Source: Nitrosomonas sp. sh817 (GTDB lineage: Bacteria > Pseudomonadota > Gammaproteobacteria > Burkholderiales > Nitrosomonadaceae). Taken from it: a stretch of 64,000 bases of DNA. This document shows positions 4,856 to 64,000 of the stretch, one piece after another. The stretch is taken from contig NZ_CP133083.1 of the NCBI RefSeq assembly GCF_030908545.1, positions 2,737,691 through 2,801,690 on the forward strand, given 5' to 3'. The notes beneath the pieces are model-generated. The model had not been told where the DNA came from. It searched no databases and saw only the letters and a program-made list of their open reading frames with translations. The position numbers were made by a program, and so were the translations under genes. The stretch's first letter is position 1; each line of letters starts with the position of its first letter.

Positions 4856-5458
4856 TTGATTACCGATATCATCACATGGATTGTCGGCACAATCAGCAGC
4901 TTAGGATACTTAGGAATTTTTATCCTGATGTTGATTGAATCCAGTTTTATTCCTTTTCCCAGTGAAGTGATTATGATACCGGCTGGCTACTTAGCCTCGA
5001 AAGGTGAAATGAACATGCTCGCCGTGATTGGCTGCGGAATCTTAGGTAGTTTGTTTGGCGCCTTGATTAATTATTATCTAGCAATCCGGTTGGGACGGCC
5101 TTTGCTCCTTGAGTATGGCAAATACGTAATGTTCAAGGAGCATCACTTATTAAAAATGGAGAGCTTTTTTGCTCGGCACGGACATATATCGACATTCACG
5201 GGACGCTTGATACCCATGATTCGTCAATACATTTCAATTCCGGCTGGCTTGGCCAGAATGAACTTGCCGGTCTTTTGTTTCTATACCAGTCTGGGAGCAG
5301 GTATTTGGGTGATCATTCTTTCCTTATTAGGCTATTTCATTGGTGAGAATGAAACGCTGATCAAGGAATATTTACGAGACATCATTATTGCGTTAGTTCT
5401 CAGCTGTGCAATCGGTATCACGCTTTACTGGTTTTATCAGCGGCGCAATAGCCACTGA
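4856..5458 (+). CDS. DedA family inner-membrane protein
   Basis: A 200-residue polytopic membrane protein of the DedA/SNARE-associated family, proposed to act as undecaprenyl-phosphate or phospholipid scramblases/flippases. The conserved [14 protein letters not shown] motif near residue 30 and [16 protein letters not shown] near residue 118 are intact, including the Arg residues important in characterised members. The start is a TTG 75 bases after secF. It ends 71 bases before the convergent amoD stop, with an inverted repeat between them. The exact substrate cannot be told from sequence. Confidence 0.88.
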
Positions 5459-46193: not shown

Positions 46194-48578
46194 TTACGCT
46201 ACTACTGTGAATACCAGCTGATCAGTAGATGCGTTGTAGATTAACGTATCATTGGTACCTGTACCGGTAATCGTCAATTGATAGTCATCTGCTGCTGCAT
46301 ACGAACCGTCACCGTTCAAGTCAATTTGAAGGGTCAATGTACCACCCGCTTGTGAAGCAGCGATATTGGTGGTAGCACTAAGCGTTGTAGCTGTAATTCC
46401 ATCATAAACATTGACATTTGCACTAGTTGCTGACAGCACCGTTCCGCCGCTCTTCAACAATGCTTCCAATGCAGCGGTGAAGTCGATCGTTACGGTATCG
46501 CCTGCCGCTACGCCGGTCAAAGTCAGTGTTGAAGAATCGCCTGCTTTAATATCACCGGCATTCAATGCGGTTGCACCGTACTTCAGAGTATGCGCGGAAG
46601 TACCACCACCAGCGACTGTGACGGTATCCGAGCCACCACCTAGATACAAAGTTGAAGTGATGGTAGCAGCATTATCGATGTCGATAGTATCATCACCACC
46701 GGTAGTTTTTACCAGCAGAGAAGTCATCGTTGATAAACTAGTATCGATAAATACAGCCGCGTCGTTAGTCAAACCAGACGCATCAATTTCAGTCGGATTG
46801 GTACTGGCCGCTGTTACTAATCTTAATGCCTCGTTACCTGTGATCACAACTTTTTCAGAATCAGTTGCAGTCAGTGTCACCGAATTCTCTTCCGCGCCAC
46901 CCACGGTTTTGGTCGAAGAACCGTCACCGATCGATTTCAGATTAATCACGTCAGCATTTGCAAATACCAGCGAGGTTACATCGATACCGTCAGCGGCTTT
47001 TGTTACACTGTTATCCAGTGAAATGGTTGTGGTATCGCTGGTACCGCCCGATACGAAATCGCTTGCGGTCAGTGTCAATGTCGTTGGTGCATCACCGTTG
47101 ATAGTGATATTACCGGTAGTAGCAGCATTGATATTTGAAACAGTTGCTGCACCGCCAGTTTCGCTAATCACCAAGCCTGTAATGGTGTTTTTAGCGCCAA
47201 TGATTGACAGATTGTAAGTTGTCGCATCGGCTCCGGCCACCTCGAATATTTCGAAGCCGGTGATACCAACCACTTCAGCCGCGGTATCCACGGTATCCGC
47301 GTCAGACACGCTCAATGTGTCGGTGCCGTCACCGCCGGTCAGAACATCTTTCGCATCGATTGTTGCACCCATTACAATCTTGTCATTACCTTTACCGCCG
47401 GTAAAGGTCAGATCAGACGCGCCCAAACCGCTGATTGTCACGTCACCGGTAGCAGTTCCTGCGTTAATGGTTTTAACCGTCGTCAATGCATGCTGCAAAT
47501 CCAGCGCTTTACTGCCAGCAATATTGATGGTTGCCAGTTTTCCACCTGCATCGGTCAATGTCACATAACTGTCGTTTCCGGAAGCCGTTAGGTCCAATTG
47601 AGTTACTGCGGTTCCTGTCAGTGCAACAGTTGCGTCAGTCGTTTTACTACCTGCTTTATCTAGCGTCACTGCCAAGGTGGTTGGATCGTTGCCTGCGATA
47701 GTCGCTGTCGTACCGCCTGCTTGATTGGTCAGCTTGATCGCCTGGCTTGCACCAACCGTTAAGGTTTGGGTACCGAAACCATCGACTTCAATCGAGGTCA
47801 CATCCGATTTAGCTGAAAAATCGATGTTACCGCCCGGCGCATTGTAGTAAACGTTTTCAATGCCTGAAATATTAGGAACAGTAGCAGTTCCGTAGATTTT
47901 CAGTATGTCGGTTCCCGTTCCGCCAACCAAGGTATCGCCTGCGGATGCTGAAACGTTATCGCCAATAAACACATCGTTACCGGAAGAGCCTGTGAATGCA
48001 TCGGTTGTGTTTGTCAGCGTGAATGTTTTGCCAACGGTTGAGCCGCTGCCTTCCAGAATATTTGCCACATCTTCATCGGTATAAGGCGCCGTGCCGGTTA
48101 CATTGCTCAAAACCTTTTGCAACGTATCCAGATCAGATGCTGAACTGGTTTTTGAATAAGCTGCAGAAACTAATGCTTTGTTATCCAGCAACGTTTTAGC
48201 TTCAGTAAAAGCCGTATCGGTAGTTGTCGACAGGAAAGTCACCGCATCATAAACGATAGCACCGAAGCCATCCCCAGCTTCGATACGATCATGAAAATAA
48301 TCATGCGCTTGGGCGCCTGCGCTTGCCGCATCATCGCTATCGGTCAGACCGAAATTTTTCATCAGAACATCAACTTGATCTTCAACAGTCACTTTACCGG
48401 CCAGAATGCCTGTGGTAAACAATGGCAGAGCAGCATATGCATTTGATAATTGCTGGGTTGTGCCACCGTTTGAAACAAAATTTGCCAGCTCGGACAGATT
48501 GCTACCGCCCGGTGCTGCATTGAATAAGCCTGCAACAATTTTCAGAATTTCGGTTTGTTGTGCACTCGTAATAGCCAT
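46194..48578 (-). CDS. Large RTX/S-layer-like secreted surface protein
   Basis: A 794-residue protein with no N-terminal signal peptide and no cysteine that I can see. Residues 1-176 form a helical domain (VAGLFNAAPGGSNLSELANFV ... YTDEDVANIL). From about 196 to the end it is Thr/Gly/Ala/Asp-rich beta-repeat sequence with Ca-binding RTX-like pieces: GSSGNDVFIGDN, LVGGTGTD, GGKGNDKIV, LTGGDGTD, TGGDDTIDID, GGGSDTV. The C-terminus (NDTLIYNASTDQLVFTVVA) resembles type I secretion signals. This fits an abundant S-layer or RsaA-like protein. AAGGGAG lies five bases before the ATG and a very strong terminator follows. No type I secretion genes are in the window. Confidence 0.82.
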   Translation of the reverse strand: MAITSAQQTEILKIVAGLFNAAPGGSNLSELANFVSNGGTTQQLSNAYAALPLFTTGILAGKVTVEDQVDVLMKNFGLTDSDDAASAGAQAHDYFHDRIEAGDGFGAIVYDAVTFLSTTTDTAFTEAKTLLDNKALVSAAYSKTSSASDLDTLQKVLSNVTGTAPYTDEDVANILEGSGSTVGKTFTLTNTTDAFTGSSGNDVFIGDNVSASAGDTLVGGTGTDILKIYGTATVPNISGIENVYYNAPGGNIDFSAKSDVTSIEVDGFGTQTLTVGASQAIKLTNQAGGTTATIAGNDPTTLAVTLDKAGSKTTDATVALTGTAVTQLDLTASGNDSYVTLTDAGGKLATINIAGSKALDLQHALTTVKTINAGTATGDVTISGLGASDLTFTGGKGNDKIVMGATIDAKDVLTGGDGTDTLSVSDADTVDTAAEVVGITGFEIFEVAGADATTYNLSIIGAKNTITGLVISETGGAATVSNINAATTGNITINGDAPTTLTLTASDFVSGGTSDTTTISLDNSVTKAADGIDVTSLVFANADVINLKSIGDGSSTKTVGGAEENSVTLTATDSEKVVITGNEALRLVTAASTNPTEIDASGLTNDAAVFIDTSLSTMTSLLVKTTGGDDTIDIDNAATITSTLYLGGGSDTVTVAGGGTSAHTLKYGATALNAGDIKAGDSSTLTLTGVAAGDTVTIDFTAALEALLKSGGTVLSATSANVNVYDGITATTLSATTNIAASQAGGTLTLQIDLNGDGSYAAADDYQLTITGTGTNDTLIYNASTDQLVFTVVA

Positions 48579-49102: not shown

Positions 49103-49933
49103 TTGCATCCGTCCAAACTCAACTATCCGAGTAATTTCTCCAACCTGTGGCAGCACAGCCCGTTGATCGCGCAAATGATCAAACGGGAGATCGTTGCCCG
49201 GTACCGGGGTTCTTTTCTGGGAATATTATGGTCATTCATCAATCCCATTTTGATGCTCGCTATTTACACGTTTGTTTTTGGTGTTGTATTTAAGGTGCGG
49301 CTTGACCCCCAGAACAATGATTTTTACGAAGATAAATTCACCTTTGCGCTTCTTTTATTCACCGGTCTGATTCTCTTTAACTTATTTTCGGAATGCTTGT
49401 CGCGCGCACCCGGATTGATACTCGCCAACGTAAACTATGTGAAGAAAGTCATTTTTCCGCTGGAAATTCTGCCGCTGGTAGCGCTAGGATCAGCCTTGTT
49501 TCATGCCGGTATCAGCTTTCTGGTATTGATTAGCTTTTTATTGATCATCAATCACCCGCTTCATTTAACCATGCTGCTGCTACCCATCATTGTGCTGCCG
49601 TTTGTTTTACTCACGCTGGGATTATCCTGGATGCTCACCTCCATTGGTGTATTTGTACGCGATATTGGTCAATTTATCGGCTTGCTTTTAACCATGCTGT
49701 TATTTCTGAGTCCGATCTTTTATCCTGCATCGGCACTGCCGGAATCCATCCGCGATTATTTATTTCTCAATCCATTGACATTTATTATCGAGCAAGCGAG
49801 AAGCGTCATTCTCTACGGTCAAATGCCGGATTGGATGGGTCTGATCGTATATTACGCGCTGGCTGCATTCATTGCATGGATGGGATTAACCTGGTTTCAT
49901 AAAACCCGGAAAGGTTTTGCAGATGTCCTTTGA
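49103..49933 (+). CDS. wzm: ABC transporter permease for polysaccharide export (Wzm-like)
   Basis: A 276-residue ABC-2 type membrane protein with about six transmembrane helices. LWQHSPLIAQMIKREIVARYRGSFLG near the start is the typical Wzm/KpsM entry (only its core need be compared), and PIFYPASALPESIRDYLFLNP is conserved in O-antigen permeases. It exports a lipid-linked polysaccharide across the inner membrane. The start is TTG; no better ATG precedes it. The wzt gene overlaps its end by 11 bases. Confidence 0.92.
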   Translation: MHPSKLNYPSNFSNLWQHSPLIAQMIKREIVARYRGSFLGILWSFINPILMLAIYTFVFGVVFKVRLDPQNNDFYEDKFTFALLLFTGLILFNLFSECLSRAPGLILANVNYVKKVIFPLEILPLVALGSALFHAGISFLVLISFLLIINHPLHLTMLLLPIIVLPFVLLTLGLSWMLTSIGVFVRDIGQFIGLLLTMLLFLSPIFYPASALPESIRDYLFLNPLTFIIEQARSVILYGQMPDWMGLIVYYALAAFIAWMGLTWFHKTRKGFADVL

Positions 49934-51197
49934 TGCCATTAATTCCGAACCGGCGATAAAAGCCGTCAACTTATCGAAGTGCTATCAACTGTATCAGCAC
50001 CCGAAAGACCGGTTGAAACAATTTTTATGGCCTCACCAGTGGTTAGGGCCGCGGCTGTTTTTCCGGGAATTGCGGGCACTGCATGGAATCGATTTAACCA
50101 TTATGCCGGGTGAAGTGGTCGGTATCGTCGGGCAGAACGGCTCCGGCAAGTCCACTTTGCTGCAATTGGTTTGCGGCACTTTAACGCCCACCAGCGGCGA
50201 AGTCCGGGTCAATGGCCGGATTGCCGCGCTATTGGAGCTTGGCGCCGGCTTCAATCCGGAATTTAGCGGACGTGAAAACATTCTGATGAGCTCGGCGATT
50301 ATGGGATTGAGTCAAGCGGAAATTGCCGCCCGCATCGATGACATCATTGATTTCTCGGGTGTCCGGGACTTTATCGACCAGCCGGTCAAAACCTATTCCA
50401 GCGGCATGTATGTGCGCCTGGCTTTTTCCGTCGCGATTAACGTTGACCCCGACATTCTGGTGATTGATGAAGCCTTATCCGTCGGCGACGGCGCCTTCGC
50501 CCGCAAATCATTTGCGCGTATCATGCAAATGCGCGACGCAGGAAAAACCATCTTGTTTTGCTCGCATTCGTTATTCCAGGTGGAATCGTTGTGCTCCCGG
50601 ACGATCTGGATTAATCACGGCCGCATGATGATGGACGGAGAATCAGCCGGAGTCGTAACCGCCTATCAAGCATTTCTTGACAAGAACAGCAATGCAACGA
50701 ATACAGTGCCTGATACTATTACCAATACCAATCAAACTGTTGCGCCGGAAAGTCATGAACATCCTTCCGGCACCGCCCGGCTGTTAAAAGTAAAACTGCA
50801 AGAGAATAATGCGAATGTGCAGCATGCTATTATCATGAGCGGCGAATCCAGCGTTCGGGTATCGGTTGCCTTTGCTTCCGATCCGCTGTTGCCTTGCCCC
50901 AATGTCGCAATGACGCTGCAAACGCCGGATGGGCGCACGATTACCAGCGCGGCAACGTGGGAAGATCAATTCATCCTGCAACGGACAGCGGAAGGAAAGG
51001 GCGAAGTCAGCCTTAAACTAGACAAAATACCGTTACTTAAAGGTGATTATCTGATTAATATCTATCTGATGTGTGAACGCGGTTTGCACATTTATGATAC
51101 AGCGGTTGCGGCAGCCACGCTTCAGATCAAACAATCAGGCCGCTTACAGGGTTATTTCTCGATCCCGCACCGATGGGAAAATACGCTTGATGGCTAA
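49923..51197 (+). CDS. wzt: ABC transporter ATPase with C-terminal glycan-binding domain (Wzt-like)
   Basis: A 424-residue protein. The ATPase half has Walker A GQNGSGKST (70-78), the signature YSSGMYVRLAFSVA near 155, and Walker B DILVIDEAL. The part from about residue 270 is a beta-sandwich-like extension ending GRLQGYFSIPHRW, characteristic of the Wzt C-terminal domain. In E. coli O9a this domain binds the capped end of the finished O-polysaccharide. Its presence suggests that chain length here is set by a terminal cap. ATG 49923 has GGAAAGG upstream. Confidence 0.93.
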   Translation: MSFDAINSEPAIKAVNLSKCYQLYQHPKDRLKQFLWPHQWLGPRLFFRELRALHGIDLTIMPGEVVGIVGQNGSGKSTLLQLVCGTLTPTSGEVRVNGRIAALLELGAGFNPEFSGRENILMSSAIMGLSQAEIAARIDDIIDFSGVRDFIDQPVKTYSSGMYVRLAFSVAINVDPDILVIDEALSVGDGAFARKSFARIMQMRDAGKTILFCSHSLFQVESLCSRTIWINHGRMMMDGESAGVVTAYQAFLDKNSNATNTVPDTITNTNQTVAPESHEHPSGTARLLKVKLQENNANVQHAIIMSGESSVRVSVAFASDPLLPCPNVAMTLQTPDGRTITSAATWEDQFILQRTAEGKGEVSLKLDKIPLLKGDYLINIYLMCERGLHIYDTAVAAATLQIKQSGRLQGYFSIPHRWENTLDG

Positions 51198-51200
51198 AGT

Positions 51201-53030
51201 ATGACGAAATCTCTAGAACACCAGCTCATGAAACCGGATATGCAACTATACCGGCACGCGGATCACCGGGTATCCGCAAGCGCAGCTCCGCCGCCGCACA
51301 GGAATCTTGCTTTTCCGTTTAACGTTTATGCGCACGCCCGGATGCTGCAGGAAGGTGAATCCGCCGGTTTTCATCACGCCCCGTTCCCGGATGGCACACG
51401 CTTTTCTCCAGTTACGCAACGGGAATTCGCGGACTTGATTTTGACCAAACTTCCGCCGCCTCCCGGACAGATTCTGGAAATCGGTAGCAGCAGTTCAGAC
51501 GCCGCTCTTTCATGGTTAAGCCAACGCGGTTACACCGTTCAAAGCATCACTGCCGCTACCCGGGCGATGGCTTATGTTCAAGATGCATCAAGCGCGGACA
51601 ACCTCGTCACCAACCACGAACTGGAAACTTATAGAGCCGAACCGGAAAGCTTCATGGCCATTCTGCTTAAGGACTCGGCACAAACCATCGAACCACTGGC
51701 AATTTTCAACAAAGCACAAGATTTACTGGCGCCATCCGGGCACTTGCTTTTGATGGATGAGTTCCTGCTGAAGAACGATGCAACCTTACGCAACCCCGCG
51801 AATCTTCACTACCTGGATCATATGATCACGTTGGCTGGCCGGTTCGGTTTCGAGCTTATCGAACACACGGATCTATCCGCTTTAGCCGCACCGGCAGTGG
51901 ATTACCGTCTGCAAATCATCGCCACGCACCGGCAACGGCTAATCAAGGATCTGTCGCTGAGTCACGAACAACTTGCGCAACTCGAACAATCCAACCGGGT
52001 TTTCCGCGACCTGTACCGCAACCAGCAAGCCGGTTATGCGCTGCTGCTGTTCAGAAAGAAAACCCAACCCAAATGGCGCCTGCAACTGCTGAAAAAAAAT
52101 CAGCTCCCGGCACTGTTTGATCTGTTCAGAAAAACCTTCAATCACGACATGACACCGGCAGTCTGGCATTGGAAATACAACACTCTCCCAGGACGGGAGA
52201 TCGGGGTCTGGCGGGAACATCAATTAATCGCGCATTATGGCGGCATCGCAAGAAAGATTCTTTTTTTCGGTCAACCGCAAACTGCTGTGCAAATCGGCGA
52301 TGTCATGGTGGATAGCAGTGAACGCGGCACATTGACGAAAAAAGGGCCCTTCTTTCTGATGGCCGCAACTTTCCTGGAACGTTACATTGGTTACAACAAA
52401 CCTTATCTATTGGGATTCGGTTTTCCAAACGAACGGGCGATGAAAGTTGCGGAGCGCTATGGACTGTACGCGGAAGTCGGAAGAATGGTCGAATTCTCCT
52501 GGGATCCGCTGCCCAAATGGCCACGCATCAAATCCCGGTTATATGCGGTTGACCGGACCGGCGATGACTACGCCGCTGCCGCTGCCGGTCACTGCTGGCG
52601 GAAAATGGCGCAAGATTTATCCGGATCCCTCGTCGGCATTCGCGATTGGTCTTACTTGCAGCACCGTTACCTGAATCACCCCTCGAATCACTACCAAATC
52701 GTACTGGTAAAAAGCCGCTTTGGCGGCAAAGCGCGTGGAATTATCGTGTTGCGTCATGATTCCAATGGCTGCGAAGTGGTCGATCTGGTGGCAGCGCTCC
52801 GAGAAATCCCCGAATTGATTCTGCACGCCAGGCGGCTGGCAGGCATTAACGGCCATCAGCGGCTTTATTGCAAAATAACCGAAAATTTTGCAGCGCATTT
52901 CGCTGCTACCGGCGGCATCCAGCAAGCGCTGGATTTCCGTATTCCGGCCAGCATCTGGGATTGCGCGCCGGCCATCGAATTGCTGCGCGACCGCTGGTGG
53001 CTGATGTCCGGCGATATGGATTTCCGTTAA
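51201..53030 (+). CDS. Methyltransferase-GNAT fusion protein
   Basis: A 609-residue protein made of two enzymes. The N-terminal third carries a SAM-binding motif GQILEIGSSSSDAALSWL (89-106) and an HLLLMDEFLL strand, typical of class I methyltransferases. After a short helical linker (about 240-290) a GNAT acetyltransferase-like half follows, with VWREHQLIAHYGGIARK, VQIGDVMVDSSERG and LLGFGFPNERAMKVAERYGLY. It starts three bases after wzt. Either domain may modify the glycan; the methyltransferase could supply a non-reducing-end cap read by the Wzt C-domain. Both substrates are unknown. Confidence 0.78.
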   Translation: MTKSLEHQLMKPDMQLYRHADHRVSASAAPPPHRNLAFPFNVYAHARMLQEGESAGFHHAPFPDGTRFSPVTQREFADLILTKLPPPPGQILEIGSSSSDAALSWLSQRGYTVQSITAATRAMAYVQDASSADNLVTNHELETYRAEPESFMAILLKDSAQTIEPLAIFNKAQDLLAPSGHLLLMDEFLLKNDATLRNPANLHYLDHMITLAGRFGFELIEHTDLSALAAPAVDYRLQIIATHRQRLIKDLSLSHEQLAQLEQSNRVFRDLYRNQQAGYALLLFRKKTQPKWRLQLLKKNQLPALFDLFRKTFNHDMTPAVWHWKYNTLPGREIGVWREHQLIAHYGGIARKILFFGQPQTAVQIGDVMVDSSERGTLTKKGPFFLMAATFLERYIGYNKPYLLGFGFPNERAMKVAERYGLYAEVGRMVEFSWDPLPKWPRIKSRLYAVDRTGDDYAAAAAGHCWRKMAQDLSGSLVGIRDWSYLQHRYLNHPSNHYQIVLVKSRFGGKARGIIVLRHDSNGCEVVDLVAALREIPELILHARRLAGINGHQRLYCKITENFAAHFAATGGIQQALDFRIPASIWDCAPAIELLRDRWWLMSGDMDFR

Positions 53031-53043
53031 ATAATCCATCTTC

Positions 53044-54225
53044 ATGAAAATTCTCATGGTTACCCGCGAAACACGGGCCGATCAGCGTTACGGCCTTGGC
53101 CGCAGCCTTGCGCCGCTGCTTGAAGAACTCCGCCGCCGCGGTATTGCCGCCGACTATCTTTGCCAGGCCGATTTAGGGCAACGCGCCTTATTTTGGCAGC
53201 ACCGTTGCCATTCCATTGGTTCATTCCTGCTGAGTAAATGGCCTGCCCGCACTAATTTCTCAGCGTTGCTGCAAGTGCTGCTGGAGCGGCTCAACATGGG
53301 CCGCCTCGCCGCCAAGCTTTCGGTTTCGCAGCAATATACGCATGTGCATTGTCACGACCCTTTGATCGCCGCAGGCTTGCGTTTTTTTTTGCATTTTCAC
53401 CGCAACCGCTCCATCGCCTGGGGCGTCACCGAGCATGGCTTCGGCTGCTATGCGCAAGCAATCCACGAAGACGGCGTTCACATGAGCCGGCCAATCATGC
53501 GCATCATGCGCCGCTGGGAAGCATGCACATTGCTCGCCGCATCCTGGGTGATCGCGCCGACCCGCCGGTGTCTGAATCAGATCGCCGGTGACTTGAAAAT
53601 TACCCCGCTTCCTGAAAACTGGCACTCCATCGTTCATGCACGTCCTTCGCTTAATCTCTATAGCCGCCAGGAAGCGCGGCAGCGGCTGGGCTGGAACGAC
53701 ACGGCTATTTACATTCTCAGCGTTGGCCGTATCGCGCCGGTGAAACAATTTCCCATGCTCATCGAAGCGTGCTCCCAATTGATTCTGGAAAAAGATTTGC
53801 AACTGGTCATCCTCGGCGAAGGCGATCACCGCCTATTGCAGCAGCAAGCGCGGCAACTGCGATTCCAGCGTGAAATCCTGTTCGCGGTTACCGGCGATAT
53901 CGGTTTATATCTTTGCGCCGCCGACTTGTATGTCAGCGCTTCGGCGTCGGAATCGTTCGGCCTGGCCAATCTGGAAGCATTGACCGCAGGCGCTGCCGCA
54001 GTGTGCACAGCCGTTGGCGGTGTACCGGAAGTTACCGGTGATGGCGCATTATTATCCGCACCCGATACCGGCGCGCTTGCAGAAGCGATGCAGCGCATGT
54101 TAAATGATGCTCAACTGCGTCAAAGAATTGTTCAAAAAGGCCGGGCAAGAGCTGAGGCGTGGCCCGATATCGCTAAAATCACCGATCACTATGAAACAAT
54201 TTATCGCCAAGCTGCAGCAGGCTAA
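53044..54225 (+). CDS. Glycosyltransferase family 4
   Basis: A 393-residue GT-B enzyme. The C-terminal nucleotide-sugar domain shows ILSVGRIAPVKQFPMLIEA, LVILGEGDHR and the family EX7E motif in SESFGLANLEALTAG near residue 305. The N-terminal acceptor domain starts MKILMVTRETRADQ. Retaining GT4 enzymes often use UDP-GlcNAc or GDP-mannose. The next gene, a PIG-L deacetylase, overlaps its end by 35 bases, which suggests that this enzyme adds an N-acetylhexosamine. Confidence 0.9.
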   Translation: MKILMVTRETRADQRYGLGRSLAPLLEELRRRGIAADYLCQADLGQRALFWQHRCHSIGSFLLSKWPARTNFSALLQVLLERLNMGRLAAKLSVSQQYTHVHCHDPLIAAGLRFFLHFHRNRSIAWGVTEHGFGCYAQAIHEDGVHMSRPIMRIMRRWEACTLLAASWVIAPTRRCLNQIAGDLKITPLPENWHSIVHARPSLNLYSRQEARQRLGWNDTAIYILSVGRIAPVKQFPMLIEACSQLILEKDLQLVILGEGDHRLLQQQARQLRFQREILFAVTGDIGLYLCAADLYVSASASESFGLANLEALTAGAAAVCTAVGGVPEVTGDGALLSAPDTGALAEAMQRMLNDAQLRQRIVQKGRARAEAWPDIAKITDHYETIYRQAAAG

Positions 54226-54970
54226 AATCGCCCGTTTGGATCTCTGCCCCTTGCCGGCCCCGCTCACCCCGATTGAGCATGGCGCTGTGCTTGTTTTCGC
54301 ACCGCATCCGGATGATGAAACGCTGGGTTGCGGCGGCACTCTGGCATTGCTACGGCAGAAACAATGTAAGATAAAAGTTGTTTTCGTCACCGACGGCGCT
54401 GGCGCCGGCAGCCTTAGTGCCGATGCTCCCGCCATCCGCCGCAAGGAGGCCATTGCCGCCTTGTCAGTGCTTGGAATCGACGACATTGAATTCCTCGATG
54501 AACCGGATGGCAGCTTCCGCAATTCATCCGGTTTTGAGAAAAAAGTCGGGCAATTGTTGCAGCAATTCCAACCGGATTGGCTGTTCGTGCCTTCGGTATT
54601 GGATTACCACCGCGACCATGTCGCCATCGGCCAAGCCGTTCTTTCTTGCTGGCAGAACCGGAAGATGCCGGGTCGCGCGTTCATTTACGAAATCTGGTGC
54701 CCGCTTCCCGCCACCCATGTCATCGACATCGGCAGCGTAATCGACATCAAGAAACAAGCGATTTCCTGCTACGCCTTACCGCTGGCGCATTGCGATTATC
54801 TCTCCGCCAGTTTGGGATTAGCCAGCTACCGGGGTCTTTATTTGCCTGGCAAGCGAGACGGTAATTATGCCGAAGCTTTTACCGAAGTGGAAAAGCATGC
54901 CGCTTTTGGAGGCTTGTTGCAAAAAATGCTAAACTTGCGGCTCTATCTTGAAAACCTATTGAAGCGTTAA
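54191..54970 (+). CDS. PIG-L family N-deacetylase
   Basis: A 259-residue zinc-dependent deacetylase of the PIG-L/LmbE family. FAPHPDDETLGCGGTLALL carries the AHPDDE metal motif (39-43), and LDYHRDHVAIGQAV the second HxxH (140-143). Members remove acetyl groups from GlcNAc-containing glycans or conjugates (GPI, mycothiol, bacillithiol). The ATG at 54191 is inside the GT4 gene. An N-acetylhexosamine of the cluster's polysaccharide is a likely substrate. Confidence 0.9.
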   Translation: MKQFIAKLQQAKIARLDLCPLPAPLTPIEHGAVLVFAPHPDDETLGCGGTLALLRQKQCKIKVVFVTDGAGAGSLSADAPAIRRKEAIAALSVLGIDDIEFLDEPDGSFRNSSGFEKKVGQLLQQFQPDWLFVPSVLDYHRDHVAIGQAVLSCWQNRKMPGRAFIYEIWCPLPATHVIDIGSVIDIKKQAISCYALPLAHCDYLSASLGLASYRGLYLPGKRDGNYAEAFTEVEKHAAFGGLLQKMLNLRLYLENLLKR

Positions 54971-55028: not shown

Positions 55029-55925
55029 ATGCCTGTAGAAAACAGTGCTGTGTACCCGCTTGTAAGTGTCATCATCCGCAGCATGGATCGCCCGACATTG
55101 ACCGAAGCGGTCGATTCTGTCGCTGCGCAAACCTATCCGAATATTGAAGTTGTGATTGTCAATGCCAAAGGCAAGAATCATCGCGCGTTGAATACTGAAT
55201 GCGGCAATCACCCGATACGGATAGCGGGTAATCAGGAATCGATGAATCGCTGCCAGGCTGCCAACATCGGATTGCACGCCGCTAGAGGCGATTACCTGAT
55301 TTTTCTCGACGATGACGATTGGTTTTTGCCGCATCATATTGAAAAATTACAGCAAACCCTTTCTGCTCATGAAGCTGCCATTGCCGCTTACGCCGGAATA
55401 CAGTGTGTCAATGAAATTGGTGAAGAAGTCCGCCGTTACGCCGAGCAATTTGATCCGGTCCAATTAAGAATTGAAAATTTCATTCCCATTCATGCCGTCC
55501 TATTCAAACGCCAGGCTCTGGACAACGGCGCTCACTTTGATGTTGCTCTGGATCTATGCGAAGATTGGGACTTCTGGCTACAATTAGCGGAGCTGGGGGA
55601 TTTTCAGTTTGTTCCGGAAATCGGCGCGGTTTATCGCTTCCAGAAGGGTGAAGGTTCCGGTATACGAGACAACAAGGTTCATACCCGGCAAGTGATGATT
55701 GCTATTTACAGAAAATGGATCCCGCGCTGGAGCGATGGCACATTAGGGTCAGTCCTGGAATACGCGCGTTACCATAAAATCGCTATTGCCAAAGAACATG
55801 CACTATTGCAACTCCAGCAGACAATCGCCGAGCGCGATCATCAAATTGCGGCATTGAGGAACTCCACCAGCTGGCGTATCACCCAGCCGATGCGCGCTAT
55901 CAGCGCATTCTTCAAAAACCTATGA
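55029..55925 (+). CDS. Glycosyltransferase family 2 (first)
   Basis: A 298-residue GT-A enzyme beginning YPLVSVIIRSMDRPTLTEAVDSV, with ANIGLHAARGDYLIFLDDDDWFLP as the donor-binding DxD region near residue 90 and ALDLCEDWDFWLQLAELG as a typical catalytic ED motif. A short coiled-coil-like C-terminus ends STSWRITQPMRAI, a tail found in many transferases of such clusters. The sugar is unknown. Confidence 0.88.
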   Translation: MPVENSAVYPLVSVIIRSMDRPTLTEAVDSVAAQTYPNIEVVIVNAKGKNHRALNTECGNHPIRIAGNQESMNRCQAANIGLHAARGDYLIFLDDDDWFLPHHIEKLQQTLSAHEAAIAAYAGIQCVNEIGEEVRRYAEQFDPVQLRIENFIPIHAVLFKRQALDNGAHFDVALDLCEDWDFWLQLAELGDFQFVPEIGAVYRFQKGEGSGIRDNKVHTRQVMIAIYRKWIPRWSDGTLGSVLEYARYHKIAIAKEHALLQLQQTIAERDHQIAALRNSTSWRITQPMRAISAFFKNL

Positions 55926-56008: not shown

Positions 56009-57061
56009 ATGATAGACACCGAAGTACTCAACTTAGACGCAACCGTCGGCATCATCACACGCACAAAAGACCGGCCTGTACTATTAAAACGCGCCTTGGA
56101 AAGCGTTATCCATCAAAGTTACGAAGACTGGCGATTGGTAATCGTCAACGATGGCGGCGATCCTGCAACGGTTGACCGGCTTGTAAATCACTATGCGCCA
56201 CAATTCCGCGGCCGGGTATCGATCATTCACAACCCGGTTTCTCTCGGCATGGAGGCCGCCAGTAACAAAGGCATACAATCGGTTAGAACCCGTTACTTGG
56301 CGATCCATGACGATGACGACAGCTGGGCGCCGGAATTTCTGACCATCGCGGTTGCGGAAATCGAACAAATCCGCCAAAAATTTCCGCAAGTCGCCGGTGT
56401 CATAGCCCTGGCAAATGCAATTTACGAGCGTGTCGAGGGCAATATTGTTCACATCGACAGAACCGAACCCTATTGGACTTCCGCAAAACGCGGTTTCGTA
56501 TCTTTGAGCGAGTTACTGGCTGACAATCAGTTTGCGCCAATTCAATTACTGTTCCGCTATGATGCAGCAGAAGCAATCGGCTTTTTTCGAGCGGATTTGC
56601 CCGTCCTCGGTGATTGGGATTTCAACATTCGTTTGTTATCGCGCCATGACATTTTCATCATCCCGCAATTTCTGGCGTTTTATCATCACCGGATTACGGA
56701 TCAGAGCGGATACGGCAACACCATCCACGCTGGTAAGAGTCAGCATGAATTGTACGCCAAGATGCTTAAAAACGAATGGTTGCGGCAAGACATCCAGGAC
56801 CGGCGATTTGGTATCGGGATGATGATCGCCTTGCAGCAAACAATGCACGCCACCGCGAATACCTCACAACCACACCCTCAGCCTATTGTATCCAGCCCTG
56901 CTGTGCGGCTGCTGCGCATCTTCAAGCTGATCAGATTGTGGTTGTCATCCGGCCAAAAAATCGCCACCATTAAAAAGTTTTTCCAAATCCTGCTTTCCGG
57001 CGGTATCCGCAATACAATTCAGCATATCAAGGCGTGGTATCTCAGCCGGGGCGGCAATTAA
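56009..57061 (+). CDS. Glycosyltransferase family 2 (second)
   Basis: A 350-residue GT-A enzyme starting ATVGIITRTKDRPVLLKRALES, with RYLAIHDDDDSWAPEFL carrying the DxD near residue 97 and LPVLGDWDFNIRLL the later GDWDF motif. The C-terminal 50 residues are hydrophobic-basic and may contact the membrane. The TAA stop shares a base with the ATG of the following HAD gene (TAATG), so the pair is coupled. Confidence 0.88.
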   Translation: MIDTEVLNLDATVGIITRTKDRPVLLKRALESVIHQSYEDWRLVIVNDGGDPATVDRLVNHYAPQFRGRVSIIHNPVSLGMEAASNKGIQSVRTRYLAIHDDDDSWAPEFLTIAVAEIEQIRQKFPQVAGVIALANAIYERVEGNIVHIDRTEPYWTSAKRGFVSLSELLADNQFAPIQLLFRYDAAEAIGFFRADLPVLGDWDFNIRLLSRHDIFIIPQFLAFYHHRITDQSGYGNTIHAGKSQHELYAKMLKNEWLRQDIQDRRFGIGMMIALQQTMHATANTSQPHPQPIVSSPAVRLLRIFKLIRLWLSSGQKIATIKKFFQILLSGGIRNTIQHIKAWYLSRGGN

Positions 57062-59034
57062 TGGTGTTTTCCAAGGATCGATCGCGCATGGATAATGACG
57101 AATTACTCAGACATTACTCGGCCAGATTAACGGAATTCAAGATCGTTTCGTTCGATATCTTCGACACGCTGATCCACCGTACCGTCCATCGGCCAACAGA
57201 TCTATTCGACACCGTTGCAGCCAGATTGCGGCACAATGAATTCGGCTTAATGAATCCGGAAATAGCGAGCAATTTTGCACATAAGAGAATCGCAGCGGAA
57301 ACCGAAGCGCGGGAACGGTTAGTAGCAGCACAGGGCACACCGGAAGTCGGATTACAGGAAATCTATGACGTCCTTGCGGAGCATCTCGAATTATCACCTG
57401 AGCAACGGCAATATCTGATCGAGCAGGAACTGGCACTGGAAGAACAATTGTGCCACCCGAATCCGGTCATGCAACTGCTTTTCCCATTGGCCGGGCAAAA
57501 CGGCCGACACGTCGCGTTGTGCTCGGATATGTATCTTCCGCCTGATTTCATCGAAAAGCTACTGACCAAGTGCGGTTATATTAAGCCCTACACCTTGCTG
57601 GTTTCCGGAGATCAGCGCAAAAGCAAGCACGAAGGATCCATGTATCACGAAGTGCTGAAGCATTTTTCCGTGCAACCGCCTGATGTGATTCACTTCGGTG
57701 ACAATGCCCATGCGGATGTTAAGATTGCCAAAAAAATCGGTATTCAACCCGAGTTTTTCAATTATCTGCAAGACCGTGTCGAGCCCCGGCTCCGGGTCCC
57801 GCTGCAGAAACCCGCGGCGGATAGCCATGTATGGTCGCTGATGACGGGTTCGATCCGCCGGCAGCTCATGGATAAGACATACGGCTTCTGGGAAGACATC
57901 GGACTACAAGTATTCGGCCCGCTCATTCTTGGAAAAATCTTATGGATGACACAATTGGCGCGCCGGCATCGCATCGAACGCATGCTGTTTTTCGCCCGCG
58001 ATGCGTTCTTGCTGCACAATGTCTTTCAGCGCTACCCGGAACTGCTCGGTCCGCAAGTCGAGCTGAAATACTGTTATTTCTCCCGGGCTGCATTACTGCT
58101 TCCCAGCTTTGTCGACATGCCGGTCGATCGTGTCCGGCATCTGTTCAGCGGCCGGGCCACGCGTACGGTCGGGTATCATCTCAACAAGCTGGGCATTAAC
58201 CCGCATTTATTCATGGCTCAAATCCAGCGATCCGGTTTCCGCTCGATCGATGAAATGGTCCCGAATGGCGACACGCGCATGTTTAATCTGTTAAATTCAC
58301 TATGGCCGCATATTTTGCTCGAAGCCAAAAGAAAGCGATCGCTGCCACAGCGCTATGTTGCCGGATTGGCGCAAGGAGTCACGCGTCTAGGCATTGTCGA
58401 CATCGGTTGGACCGGCAACATGCAAGGAGGATTTTCACGGCTGCTGCAGCTTATGCGGACGGATTTTCAAATTAATGGCTATTATCTGGGAACATTCGAA
58501 ATGTTGAATCAAAACTATTTGCCGAGAAATGTATATCAAGGCTACCTGGTCAACGAGAATGAGCCATTGAAATTATCCGACAGCCTGATCAACGGTGGCG
58601 TGGAACTGCTCGAGTTTGCTTTGATGGCGCCTCACGGCACGACTCTCGGTTACCGCGAGCAAGATGACCAAATTGTTCCGGTGCTGGAAAACAACAAAGC
58701 GGATCAAGCGATTCAGGAATTGTCCCAGCGCGTGCAAAGCGGCGCATTGGATTTCATCGATCAAGTGTTGCCACAGGTTCTGGCAATCGGCATCGATAGT
58801 TTTGTTTCCCAGCGATGGGCCGACCCATTCTTCCGTTTGGTCAACAATCCATCCCGGGAGGAAGCCAACCTGCTCGGCGAGTTGACGCACTCCGATACCG
58901 CATCGGATACCAGTAAACGCTTATATATCGCGGAAAAGCTGCCCGACACTATTATCCGCAAACGCGGCCAGGAATATCGCGAGGCGCGGCAGCGCGCTTA
59001 CTGGAAAAAAGCATTCGACCTGCGTAATGCATGA
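57061..59034 (+). CDS. HAD-domain protein of polysaccharide clusters (COG5610-like), copy 1
   Basis: A 657-residue protein. The N-terminal HAD domain has the nucleophile motif SFDIFDTLI (Asp32, with Phe at the usual +2 Asp position), ALCSDMYLPPDF, the motif III Lys region GDQRKSKHEGS, and VIHFGDNAHADVKIAKKIG as motif IV. A second domain follows with MLFFARDAFLL near residue 312 and GIVDIGWTGNMQG near 447-455; these blocks recur in copy 2. The family appears in LPS and O-antigen clusters but has no assigned reaction. A phosphatase plus transferase role is conceivable. The ATG overlaps the stop of the preceding GT2. Confidence 0.75.
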   Translation: MVFSKDRSRMDNDELLRHYSARLTEFKIVSFDIFDTLIHRTVHRPTDLFDTVAARLRHNEFGLMNPEIASNFAHKRIAAETEARERLVAAQGTPEVGLQEIYDVLAEHLELSPEQRQYLIEQELALEEQLCHPNPVMQLLFPLAGQNGRHVALCSDMYLPPDFIEKLLTKCGYIKPYTLLVSGDQRKSKHEGSMYHEVLKHFSVQPPDVIHFGDNAHADVKIAKKIGIQPEFFNYLQDRVEPRLRVPLQKPAADSHVWSLMTGSIRRQLMDKTYGFWEDIGLQVFGPLILGKILWMTQLARRHRIERMLFFARDAFLLHNVFQRYPELLGPQVELKYCYFSRAALLLPSFVDMPVDRVRHLFSGRATRTVGYHLNKLGINPHLFMAQIQRSGFRSIDEMVPNGDTRMFNLLNSLWPHILLEAKRKRSLPQRYVAGLAQGVTRLGIVDIGWTGNMQGGFSRLLQLMRTDFQINGYYLGTFEMLNQNYLPRNVYQGYLVNENEPLKLSDSLINGGVELLEFALMAPHGTTLGYREQDDQIVPVLENNKADQAIQELSQRVQSGALDFIDQVLPQVLAIGIDSFVSQRWADPFFRLVNNPSREEANLLGELTHSDTASDTSKRLYIAEKLPDTIIRKRGQEYREARQRAYWKKAFDLRNA

Positions 59035-59043
59035 AGCCACGCT

Positions 59044-60057
59044 ATGAATACTTCACTGAATAAACCGCTCATCAGCGTTGTCATGCCGGCTTACAACCAC
59101 CAAGCATTCGTGGCTGAGGCGATCCGCAGCGTGCTGACACAAACGTTGCAAGACATCGAGTTGATCATTATCAATGATGGTTCCACCGACAATACCGAAA
59201 AGGTGATTCTGGAATTTGCAGATTCGCGCATCCGCTATTTTACGCAATCCAACCAAGGCGCCCATCATGCGCTCAATCGCGGTATCGCGCTGGCGCAAGG
59301 CGAGTATCTCGCTATTATCAATTCCGATGACGTGTTTCTCCCCAACCGGCTGGAAATCATGTTCGACGCTTTACAGCAAAGCAATTTGGATTTTGTCATT
59401 TCGGATATCAATCTGATTAACGAGTATTCTGAAATTATCGTTGATTCTTCCCATTGGTGGTTGACATGGTATGAGGATGTCAAGCAAAGATATCAGCAAA
59501 CACCATCGCCGGCCGCCACATTACTTGCCGGGAATTATGCGATTTCATCGTCCAATTTTTTCTTTCGTGCGAGTTTGGCAAATAAGCTCGGCGGCTTCCG
59601 GCCGTTTCGCTATATTCTCGATTATGACTACGTTTTCCGTGCGGCGCTGATCACCCCGCGGACCTTTTCTTTTCTTATTGGCCAAAAGCTGCTCAACTAT
59701 CGTTTGCATTCGAGCAATACCATCATGGAAAACCGGCTCCTCGCCAATATTGAAACCCGTTATTTCATCAAGCAATCGATCAGCAAATACTTCGGCGATG
59801 AATTACGCGCACCGGTCGCTTATCTAAGCAAAATTGACAATTACATCAAGAAAATTCAGCAACATAACTTTAACCAATCCATTCATGCATTACGCCAACA
59901 GAATGATCAACTGCAACATCAGCACCATCAGTTGCACGATCGCTGCGAGCGGTTGATCCGGCAGTTGGCGTTATTCGAAAATTCCAAAAGTTATCGAATC
60001 GGCCGCATGATTACCGCGCCTTATCGCTGGTTCGCGTCTAAGTGGCCAGGGAAGTGA
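59044..60057 (+). CDS. Glycosyltransferase family 2 (third)
   Basis: A 337-residue GT-A enzyme. PLISVVMPAYNHQAFVAEAIRSV, IIINDGSTDNTEKVI and GEYLAIINSDDVFLPNR (DxD-type region near residue 95) are clear. The C-terminal 80 residues hold a Gln/His-rich coiled coil (LRQQNDQLQHQHHQLHDRCERL) followed by a SKSYRIGRMITAPYRW end; only the first part of that repeat is characteristic. It is nine bases after HAD copy 1 and overlaps HAD copy 2. Confidence 0.9.
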   Translation: MNTSLNKPLISVVMPAYNHQAFVAEAIRSVLTQTLQDIELIIINDGSTDNTEKVILEFADSRIRYFTQSNQGAHHALNRGIALAQGEYLAIINSDDVFLPNRLEIMFDALQQSNLDFVISDINLINEYSEIIVDSSHWWLTWYEDVKQRYQQTPSPAATLLAGNYAISSSNFFFRASLANKLGGFRPFRYILDYDYVFRAALITPRTFSFLIGQKLLNYRLHSSNTIMENRLLANIETRYFIKQSISKYFGDELRAPVAYLSKIDNYIKKIQQHNFNQSIHALRQQNDQLQHQHHQLHDRCERLIRQLALFENSKSYRIGRMITAPYRWFASKWPGK

Positions 60058-62144
60058 CACTCAAGAACTCGCAAGTGATTCGTACCGCAGCAGACTTACG
60101 CTCGGAAATTGAACGTCACATCCCGCGGATTAAAGCCGTCTCGATTGATATTTTTAATACCGTGCTGGAACGAGACGCCGTTACGATCGAAGACTGCCAA
60201 AAAATGCTGGCTCGGCGGATCGTCCGCACGATGTTCGATCGTTTCGGCATTGCCTGCACCGTTCAGAACTTGCAGCAATTAATCAAAACCATAGAAAATG
60301 CGCTGAGAAACAATCCAGCAAACACGCCCGGCGATACCCCCTACCGGTTCGCAGACTTTGCGGAAGCGTTGGCGCGCGCTCTAATCAAAAACAATACCGT
60401 TGACTCAGCCACATTAACCGGCAGGATCATTGCGCACATGCGCGCGGTTGAAACGGAAGTTTTGCTGGTCAAAACCGGCACGGCGTCTATATTGGAGTGG
60501 CTAACTCATCAAAATCTTCGCATTATCGCAATATCCGATAGGGTCATCGATCCGGCGCATTTCCAAAGCTTTCTGGAAGATAAAGGACTTATCGCGCATG
60601 CCGGACGCATTTATGTTTATCCGGAATGCAATGCTGCAATACCGCGCAAACAATTTTTCGAATCCCTGTTGCAACAGGAAGGCTTACACCCGCATGAAGT
60701 CATTCACATCGATAGCGATCAGCGATTCAATCAGCGGCCATTGACGGAATTAGGCATCACTACTATTCTATTTGACGACGCTGCAGATAACAGGCAAACG
60801 CAAACCGCGCATTGGTATCATCAGCTTGCTCAAAAAAACGCCTTTTGGCGCGGCCGTCATTTATTGCAGCTCATCCGTCCGGCAGCAGCCCGATCCTTTC
60901 ACTATAACTACGGCTATGAAATATTAGGCCCGATATATGCAACATTTATCCTTGGCGTTATCGAAGCAGTAAAAAAGCACCATATCAAGCAAGTGTTCTT
61001 CCTCGCCAGGGAAGGCGAATTGTTCATGAAGCTATTCAATATGCTTTGCCCGGATTGCTTCGAACCGGATCAGATACCATCCGCGCATTATCTGTTTGTA
61101 TCCCGTCGATCGACTGCTTCCGCAGCAGCGCACCGCGGATTGAGTCATGAAATTGCCATCACGCCGTTGTTCAATCCCAAACAACAAGGCTGGTACTCGA
61201 TTTTTCAAGCATTTGATTTACCGCCTGAAGCATTTTCCGCAATTTGCCGGAATCACGGCTATCCCGAAATCCGGCAGCCTATTGCCGATTGGGAGTCGGT
61301 TCAATTTAGGGAAATGCTGAACGATCCCGATTTTCAGAAGATTGCTCAGCAACATGCTGGAAAAAACTGGCATCTACTGCATCGCTATCTGGAACAACAG
61401 CATTTCTTCACTGAAAAACAAGTAGCGATCGTGGATATCGGCTGGAATGGCACGACCCAGAAATTCTTGCAAGAAGCTTTTGGGCAAGATGAAAATTACC
61501 CGCATGTAATGGGACTTTACTTCGGATTTATTGGCGGCAGAAAATACCAATTTGACTCTAAAAAAAATACCTTGCTGGGAATCCTGTGCGATGAACGGAA
61601 CAAAACCAGGCCGGGAGATATTTTTAGCCGGTTCGAAGAGATTTTTGAAGAAGGTGCGCGTGCGCTTCACCCCACCACGATCGGCTATCAATTCGATCAG
61701 CAAAACGATAGGATAGTACCCATTTTCAAACCGCTATCCGGTGATACTAAAAACACAGAATCGTTCACCAATCAATACATTAACGAGATTCAAACCGGGG
61801 TCCTGGATTTTACCAGCGAATTTGCGCGCGCAATTGATTTGACCGGCTATCGCCTTAATGATATCAAGCCTTTTATACTAACCTTGGCCGAAAGAGCCGT
61901 TGCATTTCCAACTACTGAAGAATGCAACCAGCTCATGCAATTGAACCATTCGGAAGATTTCGGCACGGAAAATACCATGAATTTTCAGCAAGAAAAGCTT
62001 CATGGCTGGAATGCCTTGTTGAAACCCGGCAATCTCTACCGGATGTTAAAGAGCGCCAACTGGAAATACGGCACTGTCTCATCGCTGGGTATTCCGGGTT
62101 TAAATAGTGTTTTACGGCTGTTCGATTTATTGAAATCAAAATGA
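60042..62144 (+). CDS. HAD-domain protein of polysaccharide clusters (COG5610-like), copy 2
   Basis: A 700-residue paralogue in domain plan of the copy at 57.1 kb. The HAD nucleophile motif is SIDIFNTVL (Asp36, Phe38 at +2), but the motif IV region (VIHIDSDQRFNQRPL) is more degenerate than in copy 1, so phosphatase activity is doubtful. The second domain has QVFFLAREGELFMKLF near residue 320 and AIVDIGWNGTTQKFL near 462-475. The start is GTG at 60042, 16 bases inside the preceding GT2; a GTG at 60054 is also possible. The ATG of the next gene overlaps its stop (ATGA). Confidence 0.75.
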   Translation: MAREVTLKNSQVIRTAADLRSEIERHIPRIKAVSIDIFNTVLERDAVTIEDCQKMLARRIVRTMFDRFGIACTVQNLQQLIKTIENALRNNPANTPGDTPYRFADFAEALARALIKNNTVDSATLTGRIIAHMRAVETEVLLVKTGTASILEWLTHQNLRIIAISDRVIDPAHFQSFLEDKGLIAHAGRIYVYPECNAAIPRKQFFESLLQQEGLHPHEVIHIDSDQRFNQRPLTELGITTILFDDAADNRQTQTAHWYHQLAQKNAFWRGRHLLQLIRPAAARSFHYNYGYEILGPIYATFILGVIEAVKKHHIKQVFFLAREGELFMKLFNMLCPDCFEPDQIPSAHYLFVSRRSTASAAAHRGLSHEIAITPLFNPKQQGWYSIFQAFDLPPEAFSAICRNHGYPEIRQPIADWESVQFREMLNDPDFQKIAQQHAGKNWHLLHRYLEQQHFFTEKQVAIVDIGWNGTTQKFLQEAFGQDENYPHVMGLYFGFIGGRKYQFDSKKNTLLGILCDERNKTRPGDIFSRFEEIFEEGARALHPTTIGYQFDQQNDRIVPIFKPLSGDTKNTESFTNQYINEIQTGVLDFTSEFARAIDLTGYRLNDIKPFILTLAERAVAFPTTEECNQLMQLNHSEDFGTENTMNFQQEKLHGWNALLKPGNLYRMLKSANWKYGTVSSLGIPGLNSVLRLFDLLKSK

Positions 62145-62423: not shown

Positions 62424-63377
62424 TTGAAACCATTGTGTGAGGACATCATACCGGTTATCGTCACCTACAACCCTGACAAAGTCACGCTGATTGCCAGTAT
62501 TAGCGCATTACTCGAACAGGTTAAAATCATCGTCATCGTCGACAATGGCTCGGATAATGACGTTGGCTCATTACTGCAGCAATTGCAACTGCCACAACCC
62601 GATGCACTATGTTTTCTGGCATTGAACCAAAATTTCGGGCTTGGGAAAGCTTTTAATGCCGGTATTGCTATTGCCCGGAATATGCATGCGGCATTTGTAC
62701 TGCTGATGGATCAGGACAGCATTCCGGAACCGGATATGTTGCAAGAATTGCGTCGTATTCATACTCGATTGTCTCATCAGGAAAAACCAGTTGCCGCAGT
62801 CGGCGCGAGCTATCGAAATCAGACACATGAAGGACTGGCGCCTTTTACCCGGTTGACACAATTCGGTCTTGCAAAGATTCATTGCGAGGGCCGCACAGAT
62901 TTTGTGCAAACCGATTTTCTGATATCGTCCGGGACACTGATTTCGATCCAAGCATTGGATCAAATCGGCGGCATGGATGAAGATCTTTTTATCGATCACA
63001 TCGATACTGAGTGGTGTTTCCGTGCGCAATCCAAAGGATACAAAGTATTCGGCGCCTGTCATGCCGTCATGCGGCATGCATTGGGAGACCGCCAGGTTCG
63101 TGTCTGGTTGGGCCGGTGGCGGACCATCGCATTCCACCAGCCTTTCCGCTATTACTATATGTTCCGGAACAGTGTGCTGCTCTGGAAGCGCTCCTACATG
63201 CCCAGTGCTTGGAAACGCGCCGATAAATTCCGCACCTTGTCGGCTTTGATTTTTTTCACGATATTTTCATCCAATCGCCTTGCCAATCTTGCAATGATGT
63301 TGAAAGGCTTGTGGCACGGATTCAACAACCGCAGCGGAAAATTATTGAGCGCTTCGAAAAATTCAGATGGAAATTAA
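62424..63377 (+). CDS. Glycosyltransferase family 2, rhamnosyltransferase-like
   Basis: A 317-residue enzyme. IIPVIVTYNPDKVTLIASI, VIVDNGSDND, LNQNFGLGKAFNAGI and FVLLMDQDSIPEPDML are the typical blocks of the RfbF-like rhamnosyltransferase group, with DQDS in place of the DxD. IDHIDTEWCFRAQSKGYKV is the ExxW-like catalytic region. The start is TTG with AGGAAC upstream. dTDP-rhamnose is the likely but unproved donor. The next GT2 overlaps its end by 11 bases. Confidence 0.85.
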   Translation: MKPLCEDIIPVIVTYNPDKVTLIASISALLEQVKIIVIVDNGSDNDVGSLLQQLQLPQPDALCFLALNQNFGLGKAFNAGIAIARNMHAAFVLLMDQDSIPEPDMLQELRRIHTRLSHQEKPVAAVGASYRNQTHEGLAPFTRLTQFGLAKIHCEGRTDFVQTDFLISSGTLISIQALDQIGGMDEDLFIDHIDTEWCFRAQSKGYKVFGACHAVMRHALGDRQVRVWLGRWRTIAFHQPFRYYYMFRNSVLLWKRSYMPSAWKRADKFRTLSALIFFTIFSSNRLANLAMMLKGLWHGFNNRSGKLLSASKNSDGN

Positions 63378-64000
63378 AACACATCGCTGGCAGCCAGTAT
63401 CCATCGTCACTGTCAACTACAACGGCGGCTCGCTGCTGAATCAATGCGTGCATGCTGCGCTTGAGCAAGCACGGGAAGTGATTATTGTCGACAATGCCTC
63501 GTCTGATTCCAGTTTGACAGAACTCGAACAGCGCTTTTCCTCCAACGAGCGCTTCCAAACCATTCGCTTGCCCCATAATCGCGGTTTCGCTGCCGGTTGT
63601 AATACCGGCCTTAGCGCATCAACGCAACCTTATATTCTTTTTCTGAACCCGGATTGCATCCTGCAGGAAAATTCATTACAGCGCATGGTACAAGTACTAG
63701 AATCAGACCCGCGGATCGGCATGGTTGGCGGTTATCTTGTTAACCCCGACGGTTCCGAACAGGGCGGCGGGCGGCGGGCGATTCCTACGCCGTGGCGGGC
63801 TTTTGTACGCGCTTTCGGCTTATATCGCTTGGCAAAATACTGGCCAAAAGTGTTTTTTGATTTTCATCTGGATCAACAGCCTCTCCCCCAAGAACCTGTC
63901 GAAGTTGAGGCGATATCCGGCGCATTGATGCTGGTGCGGCGTCAAGCGATTGATGATGCAGGTTCCTGGGATGAGCAATATTTTCTGCATTGTGAAGATC
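63367..64000 (+). CDS. Glycosyltransferase family 2, WbbL-like (partial, runs off the window)
   Basis: An open frame starts at ATG 63367, inside the end of the preceding gene, and continues to the window edge (about 211 residues seen). It begins MEIKTHRWQPVSIVTVNYNGG and has EVIIVDNASSDSS, LPHNRGFAAGCNTGL, ILFLNPDCIL and VEVEAISGALMLVRRQAI, which fit the WbbL/GT2 rhamnosyltransferase-like group. The missing C-terminus prevents a firmer call. Confidence 0.88.
   Translation, partial: MEIKTHRWQPVSIVTVNYNGGSLLNQCVHAALEQAREVIIVDNASSDSSLTELEQRFSSNERFQTIRLPHNRGFAAGCNTGLSASTQPYILFLNPDCILQENSLQRMVQVLESDPRIGMVGGYLVNPDGSEQGGGRRAIPTPWRAFVRAFGLYRLAKYWPKVFFDFHLDQQPLPQEPVEVEAISGALMLVRRQAIDDAGSWDEQYFLHCED

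Follow-up and report, generated by a model that had tools for sequence, protein, structure and literature searches.

Tandem two-domain ribofuranosyltransferases, the second with a decaying phosphatase, in a Nitrosomonas surface polysaccharide locus

The primary report on two-domain ribofuranosyltransferases is said to be that of Kelly (2022, Nat Chem Biol 18:530). According to published studies, the gPRT domain (also called CriT) moves ribofuranose-5-phosphate (Ribf-5-P) from PRPP, and a HAD phosphatase domain (PRP, or CrpP) takes off the 5'-phosphate (PMC10299916, PMC11127046, PMC12096443, PMC11231755). In Haemophilus influenzae type b, Bcs3 (8A0C/8A0M) combines both domains with CroT and an SH3b domain in one fusion protein; the separated domains work in trans, and the dimer sets the CriT of one protomer against the CrpP of the other (PMC10299916). 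Cj1432 of Campylobacter jejuni, a capsule enzyme of which a single copy is described, is a GT-HAD-gPRT fusion with a GT4 module that transfers Ribf-5-P and then dephosphorylates it in vitro (PMC12096443). The polyprenyl phosphoribofuranose synthase ORF15 of C. youngae likewise uses PRPP and has a HAD PRP domain, but its transferase is an integral-membrane UbiA-type protein without gPRT similarity (PMC11127046). In the published O4 (ORF5) and O7 (ORF7) clusters of Klebsiella pneumoniae, the ribofuranosyltransferase is a separate polypeptide that works with other glycosyltransferases in an ABC-transporter O-antigen setting, with one such enzyme per locus (PMC11231755).

The locus considered here lies in a window of 64,000 nucleotides (the whole stretch of DNA that was analysed) from the 3.15 Mb genome of Nitrosomonas sp. 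sh817 (labelled G000). It is an ABC-transporter-dependent (Wzm/Wzt), O-antigen-like surface polysaccharide locus. In this setting it resembles the Klebsiella clusters, but two ribofuranosyltransferases, RT1 and RT2, stand in tandem, and the PRP domain of RT2 is degenerate. On the forward strand, the cluster includes a Wzm-type ABC-2 transporter permease (49103–49933; PF01061, syntenic orthologues), a Wzt-type ABC ATPase with a Wzt_C carbohydrate-binding domain (49917–51197; PF00005, PF14524), a locus-conserved 609-aa GNAT-domain protein with an N-terminal part that looks by eye like a SAM-methyltransferase (51201–53030; PF13527, synteny), a GT4 glycosyltransferase (53044–54225; PF00534), a PIG-L type deacetylase (54104–54970; PF02585), and the GT2a glycosyltransferase (55029–55925; PF00535). 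The last two are separate in the window and in genome G044 and form one fused protein in NEU (G856, placed in the same genus), G047, G048, and G053 (loci L004, L065, L066, and L068 among those compared).

The two modules follow on the same strand in the order GT2b (56009–57061), RT1 (57034–59034), GT2c (59044–60057), and RT2 (60042–62144). They are packed tightly and mostly overlap, and the alternation of GT2 and HAD genes described in the original prediction is as claimed. GT2b and GT2c match Glycos_transf_2 (PF00535) at 73.5 and 120.8 bits, with a gathering cut-off of 23.3. By synteny, GT2b is the module partner of RT1 and is missing wherever RT1 is missing (G047, G048). RT2 overlaps GT2c by 16 nt. 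In the orthologues of RT1, the start codon is a TTG, equivalent to window position 57058, that gives a TTGA overlap with the stop of GT2b. This TTG is the likely start of RT1, so that GT2b and RT1 probably overlap by just 4 nt. Downstream, GT2d (62424–63377, PF00535) and GT2e (63367–63999, PF00535) continue on the forward strand, and the latter runs past the window end. Upstream of wzm, a 794-aa protein is encoded on the reverse strand (46194–48578); it gave no match in the Pfam and NCBIfam searches, and other genomes have ORFs with which it shares an FNAAPG-type N-terminus beside the cluster. At a locus with the same flanks in G848, which belongs to the species of the window (L094), the GNAT, GT4, and PIG-L proteins are 98–99% identical and GT2e is 87% identical, and a 1292-aa GT2...HAD-gPRT protein and a glycosyltransferase stand in place of GT2a-GT2b-RT1-GT2c-RT2-GT2d. 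The comparison shows a serotype-like cassette exchange inside one species.

The original prediction saw in the C-terminal part of RT1 and RT2 a domain with no reaction assigned, and this view arose because Pfam and NCBIfam leave the domain unmatched. A reaction can nevertheless be assigned. In a phmmer search against the PDB, both proteins matched the ribofuranosyl transferase 7SHG of Thermobacillus composti, and RT1 matched Bcs3. A profile built from 55 relatives matched 7SHG across its whole length (E = 7e-110) and Bcs3 (E = 1e-74). The AlphaFold models of RT2 and RT1 are confident (pLDDT 86.9 and 88.1, pTM 0.88 and 0.89, respectively), and the structure comparison that had been proposed as a check leads to the known ribofuranosyltransferases: the best Foldseek match is 7SHG for RT2 and Bcs3 for RT1, and every plain HAD protein ranks lower. 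VIA-align superposed RT2 on 7SHG over 572 residues with a Z score of 31.4 and an rmsd of 7.5 Å, which probably reflects domain placement. The similarity to 7SHG and 8A0C, in sequence as in fold, extends over the full domains. The domain order HAD(PRP)-gPRT, the full-length fold, the D-x-F motif I, and the SREG/VDVGW blocks are common to 7SHG and the Nitrosomonas proteins. By sequence and fold, RT1 and RT2 are thus identified as members of the known two-domain PRPP-dependent family, the structures of which were solved in 2022–2023, with the C-terminal domain as gPRT/CriT and the HAD domain as its 5'-phosphatase; the chemistry is not new. From this membership we infer PRPP as the donor, and PRPP-dependent ribosyl transfer by both proteins is predicted with high confidence.

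The gPRT domain spans approximately aa 270–610 in both proteins. Its candidate catalytic residues are R322, D323, R351, D456, and E527 in RT1 and R323, E324, R355, D465, and E536 in RT2. In the alignments, where chain positions run 3 ahead of the numbering of PMC10299916 (683, 711, and 821), the Bcs3 residues D680, R708, and E818 pair with D323/R351/D456 in RT1 and with E324/R355/D465 in RT2. The acidic pair equivalent to D680/E818, at which replacement by alanine lowered Bcs3 activity (PMC10299916), is therefore present as D323/D456 in RT1 and E324/D465 in RT2, and 7SHG has E/D. In Bcs3, the DIGW block has E instead of D (PMC10299916). The arginine equivalent to R708, which lies near the ribose ring, is R351/R355 and is invariant in 55 homologues. 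The invariant E527/E536 would match in position the proposed base E874 of Bcs3, a residue that lies outside the span of the obtained Bcs3 alignments. Conservation mapping across these 55 homologues, another of the proposed checks, left as the sole invariant columns (RT2 numbering) D36, which is the HAD nucleophile, and R323, R355, D465, G467, and E536, the last five of which confirm that the two copies share the C-terminal domain. Of these, R355 and D465 map to the Bcs3 PRPP site, and the ARxx and DIGWxG blocks are thus assigned as PRPP-site loops.

Beyond these short catalytic blocks, little is common to the two copies. The strong conservation claimed for the C-terminal domain does not hold, as RT1 and RT2 are only 19.7% identical there and 18.0% identical in the HAD domain. 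With approximately 20% identity between the copies and 19% between each of them and 7SHG, the C-terminal domain might use another donor. This is very improbable: the family-invariant residues are those at the Bcs3 PRPP site, the fold matches over its full length, and a PRP domain in RT1 and in the lone RT2 of other genomes fits a 5-phospho-sugar product. The domain was rightly seen as a functional core and a transferase, distinct from GT-A and GT-B, but it is not new, since gPRT/CriT has been solved and relatives have been assayed. The reading as a new transferase was dropped, as phmmer, the profile, Foldseek, and VIA-align all give 7SHG/Bcs3.

The HAD domains of the two proteins differ in their catalytic residues. 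Motif I is D-I-F in both, and the original prediction was correct in noting Phe in place of the second Asp. However, this is not an anomaly and was discarded as one. The surveyed relatives follow the pattern D-x-[F/W]-D-T, with Phe or Trp in virtually all that have an aligned HAD, and CrpP conserves the first Asp of DxD but not the second (PMC10299916), so Phe is normal for the family. The PRP domain of RT1 (approximately aa 35–245) has all five catalytic residues: the nucleophile D41, S164 of motif II, K198 of motif III, and D223 and D228 of motif IV. In RT2 (approximately aa 28–262), D36 and S165 are kept, and the consensus D39, K200, G224, D225, and D230 are replaced by N, I, D, S, and N. 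The five positions thus read D,S,I,S,N, with the Lys and both motif IV Asp gone. The erosion of motif IV that had been noted in this copy (HIDSDQRFNQ against HFGDNAHADVK) is a real anomaly. The orthologues in the other tandem loci read D/T/Q/D/A (G044), D/S/G/D/A (G003), and D/S/K/D/G (NEU). Judging from these residues, the RT2 phosphatase is very likely inactive or nearly so. Some residual activity is possible, since each of the four tandem loci keeps the nucleophile Asp and a motif II Ser/Thr.

The decay is seen in the HAD domain of the tandem RT2 proteins (HAD2) and is confined, within RT2, to the four loci that also carry an intact RT1. The columns compared were those with at least 85% conservation among 51 other relatives, a set from which G612, the sole survey member with a lost nucleophile, was left out. 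The window, NEU, G044, and G003 keep 9, 15, 8, and 10 of the 20 HAD columns, respectively, and 18/18 gPRT columns each. On a fixed tree, the tandem clade has a HAD/gPRT branch-length ratio of 2.78, compared with 0.98 elsewhere. G044 and G003 are a clean pair in which dS is unsaturated in all four domains, most other pairs being saturated or nearly so. Their omega values (Nei-Gojobori) are 0.36 for HAD2, 0.085 for HAD1, 0.12 for gPRT1, and 0.09 for gPRT2, and their amino acid identity is 96.1% in HAD1 and 75.6% in HAD2. Selection is relaxed on HAD2 and on HAD2 only, and an omega of 0.36 means that some constraint remains. This value, which is not near 1, the retained nucleophile Asp, and the preserved fold (block pLDDT mostly 83–97 across the HAD; VIA-align) would also be expected if HAD2 had been repurposed, for example, to bind the acceptor or to dock onto RT1 or GT2c. 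Such a new role is unlikely, as the four HAD2s share no new motif and have replaced the same catalytic positions by different residues: in the order given above, D230 became N, G, A, and A, and K200 became I, was kept, and became Q and G. Relaxed selection remains the preferred explanation.

Two genomes point to the starting state. G047 and G048 have the same backbone without GT2b-RT1 (seen from wzm to GT2e in G048 and in the fetched part in G047), and their RT2, with an intact HAD, is fused to GT2c (1036 and 1057 aa), which recalls the fusion in Cj1432. Genome-wide, no further family member was found in either. The HAD tree places both outside the tandem clade, which is monophyletic (99%). 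The intact HAD is thus ancestral, with the decay occurring after, or alongside, coexistence with RT1; given this single origin of the decay, the comparison with G047/G048 counts as a single event. On the gPRT tree, by contrast, NEU groups with G048. Inside the gene, nucleotide identity between these two rises from approximately 65–70% to approximately 85%, which, together with the conflicting tree, suggests recombination. The two independent decays at which the gPRT tree hints are for this reason not claimed. At the corresponding locus of G002 (L071, contig C133), a remnant of the RT2 C-terminus with in-frame stops lies at approximately 4890–5335, and no intact family member was found in that genome.

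In the model that we consider likely, RT1 and RT2 would be cytoplasmic bipartite enzymes that build a ribofuranose polysaccharide exported by Wzm/Wzt. The gPRT domain of each would transfer Ribf-5-P from PRPP to the growing chain, beta-linked as in characterised relatives, and PRP would strip the 5'-phosphate, leaving the chain ready for extension by the next GT2. The intervening sugar would come from the GT2 adjoining each RT; with one GT2 per RT, the repeat would contain two Ribf in loci with both modules and one Ribf with GT2c-RT2 alone. RT1 would hold both activities, and RT2 would keep the transferase only, its own phosphatase being a decaying pseudoenzyme that serves as a folded scaffold. 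The PRP of RT1 would dephosphorylate the RT2 product in trans, and the RT2 phosphatase apparently decayed because its intact neighbour does its job. This rescue is reasonably probable, and the in-trans activity of the separated Bcs3 domains fits it.

The family-wide survey, in which 76 gPRT ORFs were collected from approximately 1,000 genomes, bears on this rescue. A working PRP of their own is lacking in 18 of the 76. An intact PRP is present in the fetched locus of 15 of these 18, compared with 7 of the 58 that have their own (Fisher p = 3e-8, uncorrected for shared ancestry). Among the other three, L093 is cut by a contig end, the partner of L081 (L080) lies on a different contig in the same genome, and G612 is a true exception, its degenerate PRP being unaccompanied by any other family member found in the genome. 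All but one of the gPRTs without a working PRP, a contig-edge fragment aside, therefore have an intact PRP in the cluster or genome. In G612 (L126, 8501–10975), the protein combines a gPRT with a HAD without a nucleophile, and nearby ORFs look flagellin-like by eye. These counts also bear on the possibility that the RT2 product keeps its 5'-phosphate, so that the polymer carries Ribf-5-P and the next sugar is placed on C2 or C3. HAD2 without its metal-binding and Lys residues would fit a retained phosphate. In Hib and E. coli K18, Ribf carries the next residue at C3 or C2 (PMC10299916), and such a site would formally stay free with a phosphate at C5. Nevertheless, many PRP-less gPRTs without a nearby PRP would then be expected, and only G612 is clearly one; the available passages on characterised enzymes describe no retained Ribf-5-P. 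A retained phosphate is quite improbable, and removal by the PRP of RT1 is the reading kept here.

The 15 cases form approximately five groups: RT2, the 1533–1534-aa proteins, the 781-aa gPRTs, G275, and split genes. The 1533–1534-aa proteins have lost the motif II Ser and adjoin a 671-aa partner; the HAD/gPRT ratio is 1.61 in their clade versus 0.91, and two members of the clade keep motif II. The 781-aa proteins (L072, L085, and L086 in G018, G840, and G839) have a methyltransferase-like N-terminus and a coiled-coil-like middle (both by eye), followed by a C-terminal gPRT without HAD, and adjoin a 694-aa HAD-gPRT; this domain combination is unusual. In the split group, gPRT genes of 344–362 aa are followed by a HAD gene. 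Here PRP is simply the next gene, which shows separability, not decay. We lean slightly towards the view that a single phosphatase serves both enzymes of such tandems, one paralogue being a transferase with a pseudo-phosphatase that depends on its neighbour, and that this pooling of PRP arose several times across these groups, with the proteins paired with a 671-aa partner here taken as those of 1533–1541 aa.

The enzyme family is known; what is new here is the tandem with a decaying second phosphatase. The assignment gives a reaction to proteins with a C-terminal domain that is nameless in Pfam and NCBIfam, and ribofuranose is predicted in the surface glycan of Nitrosomonas-type ammonia oxidisers. 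With intact, early-decayed, and late-decayed PRPs at one locus, these bacteria provide a natural test system for the question of whether the Ribf phosphatase step is a shared, promiscuous service.
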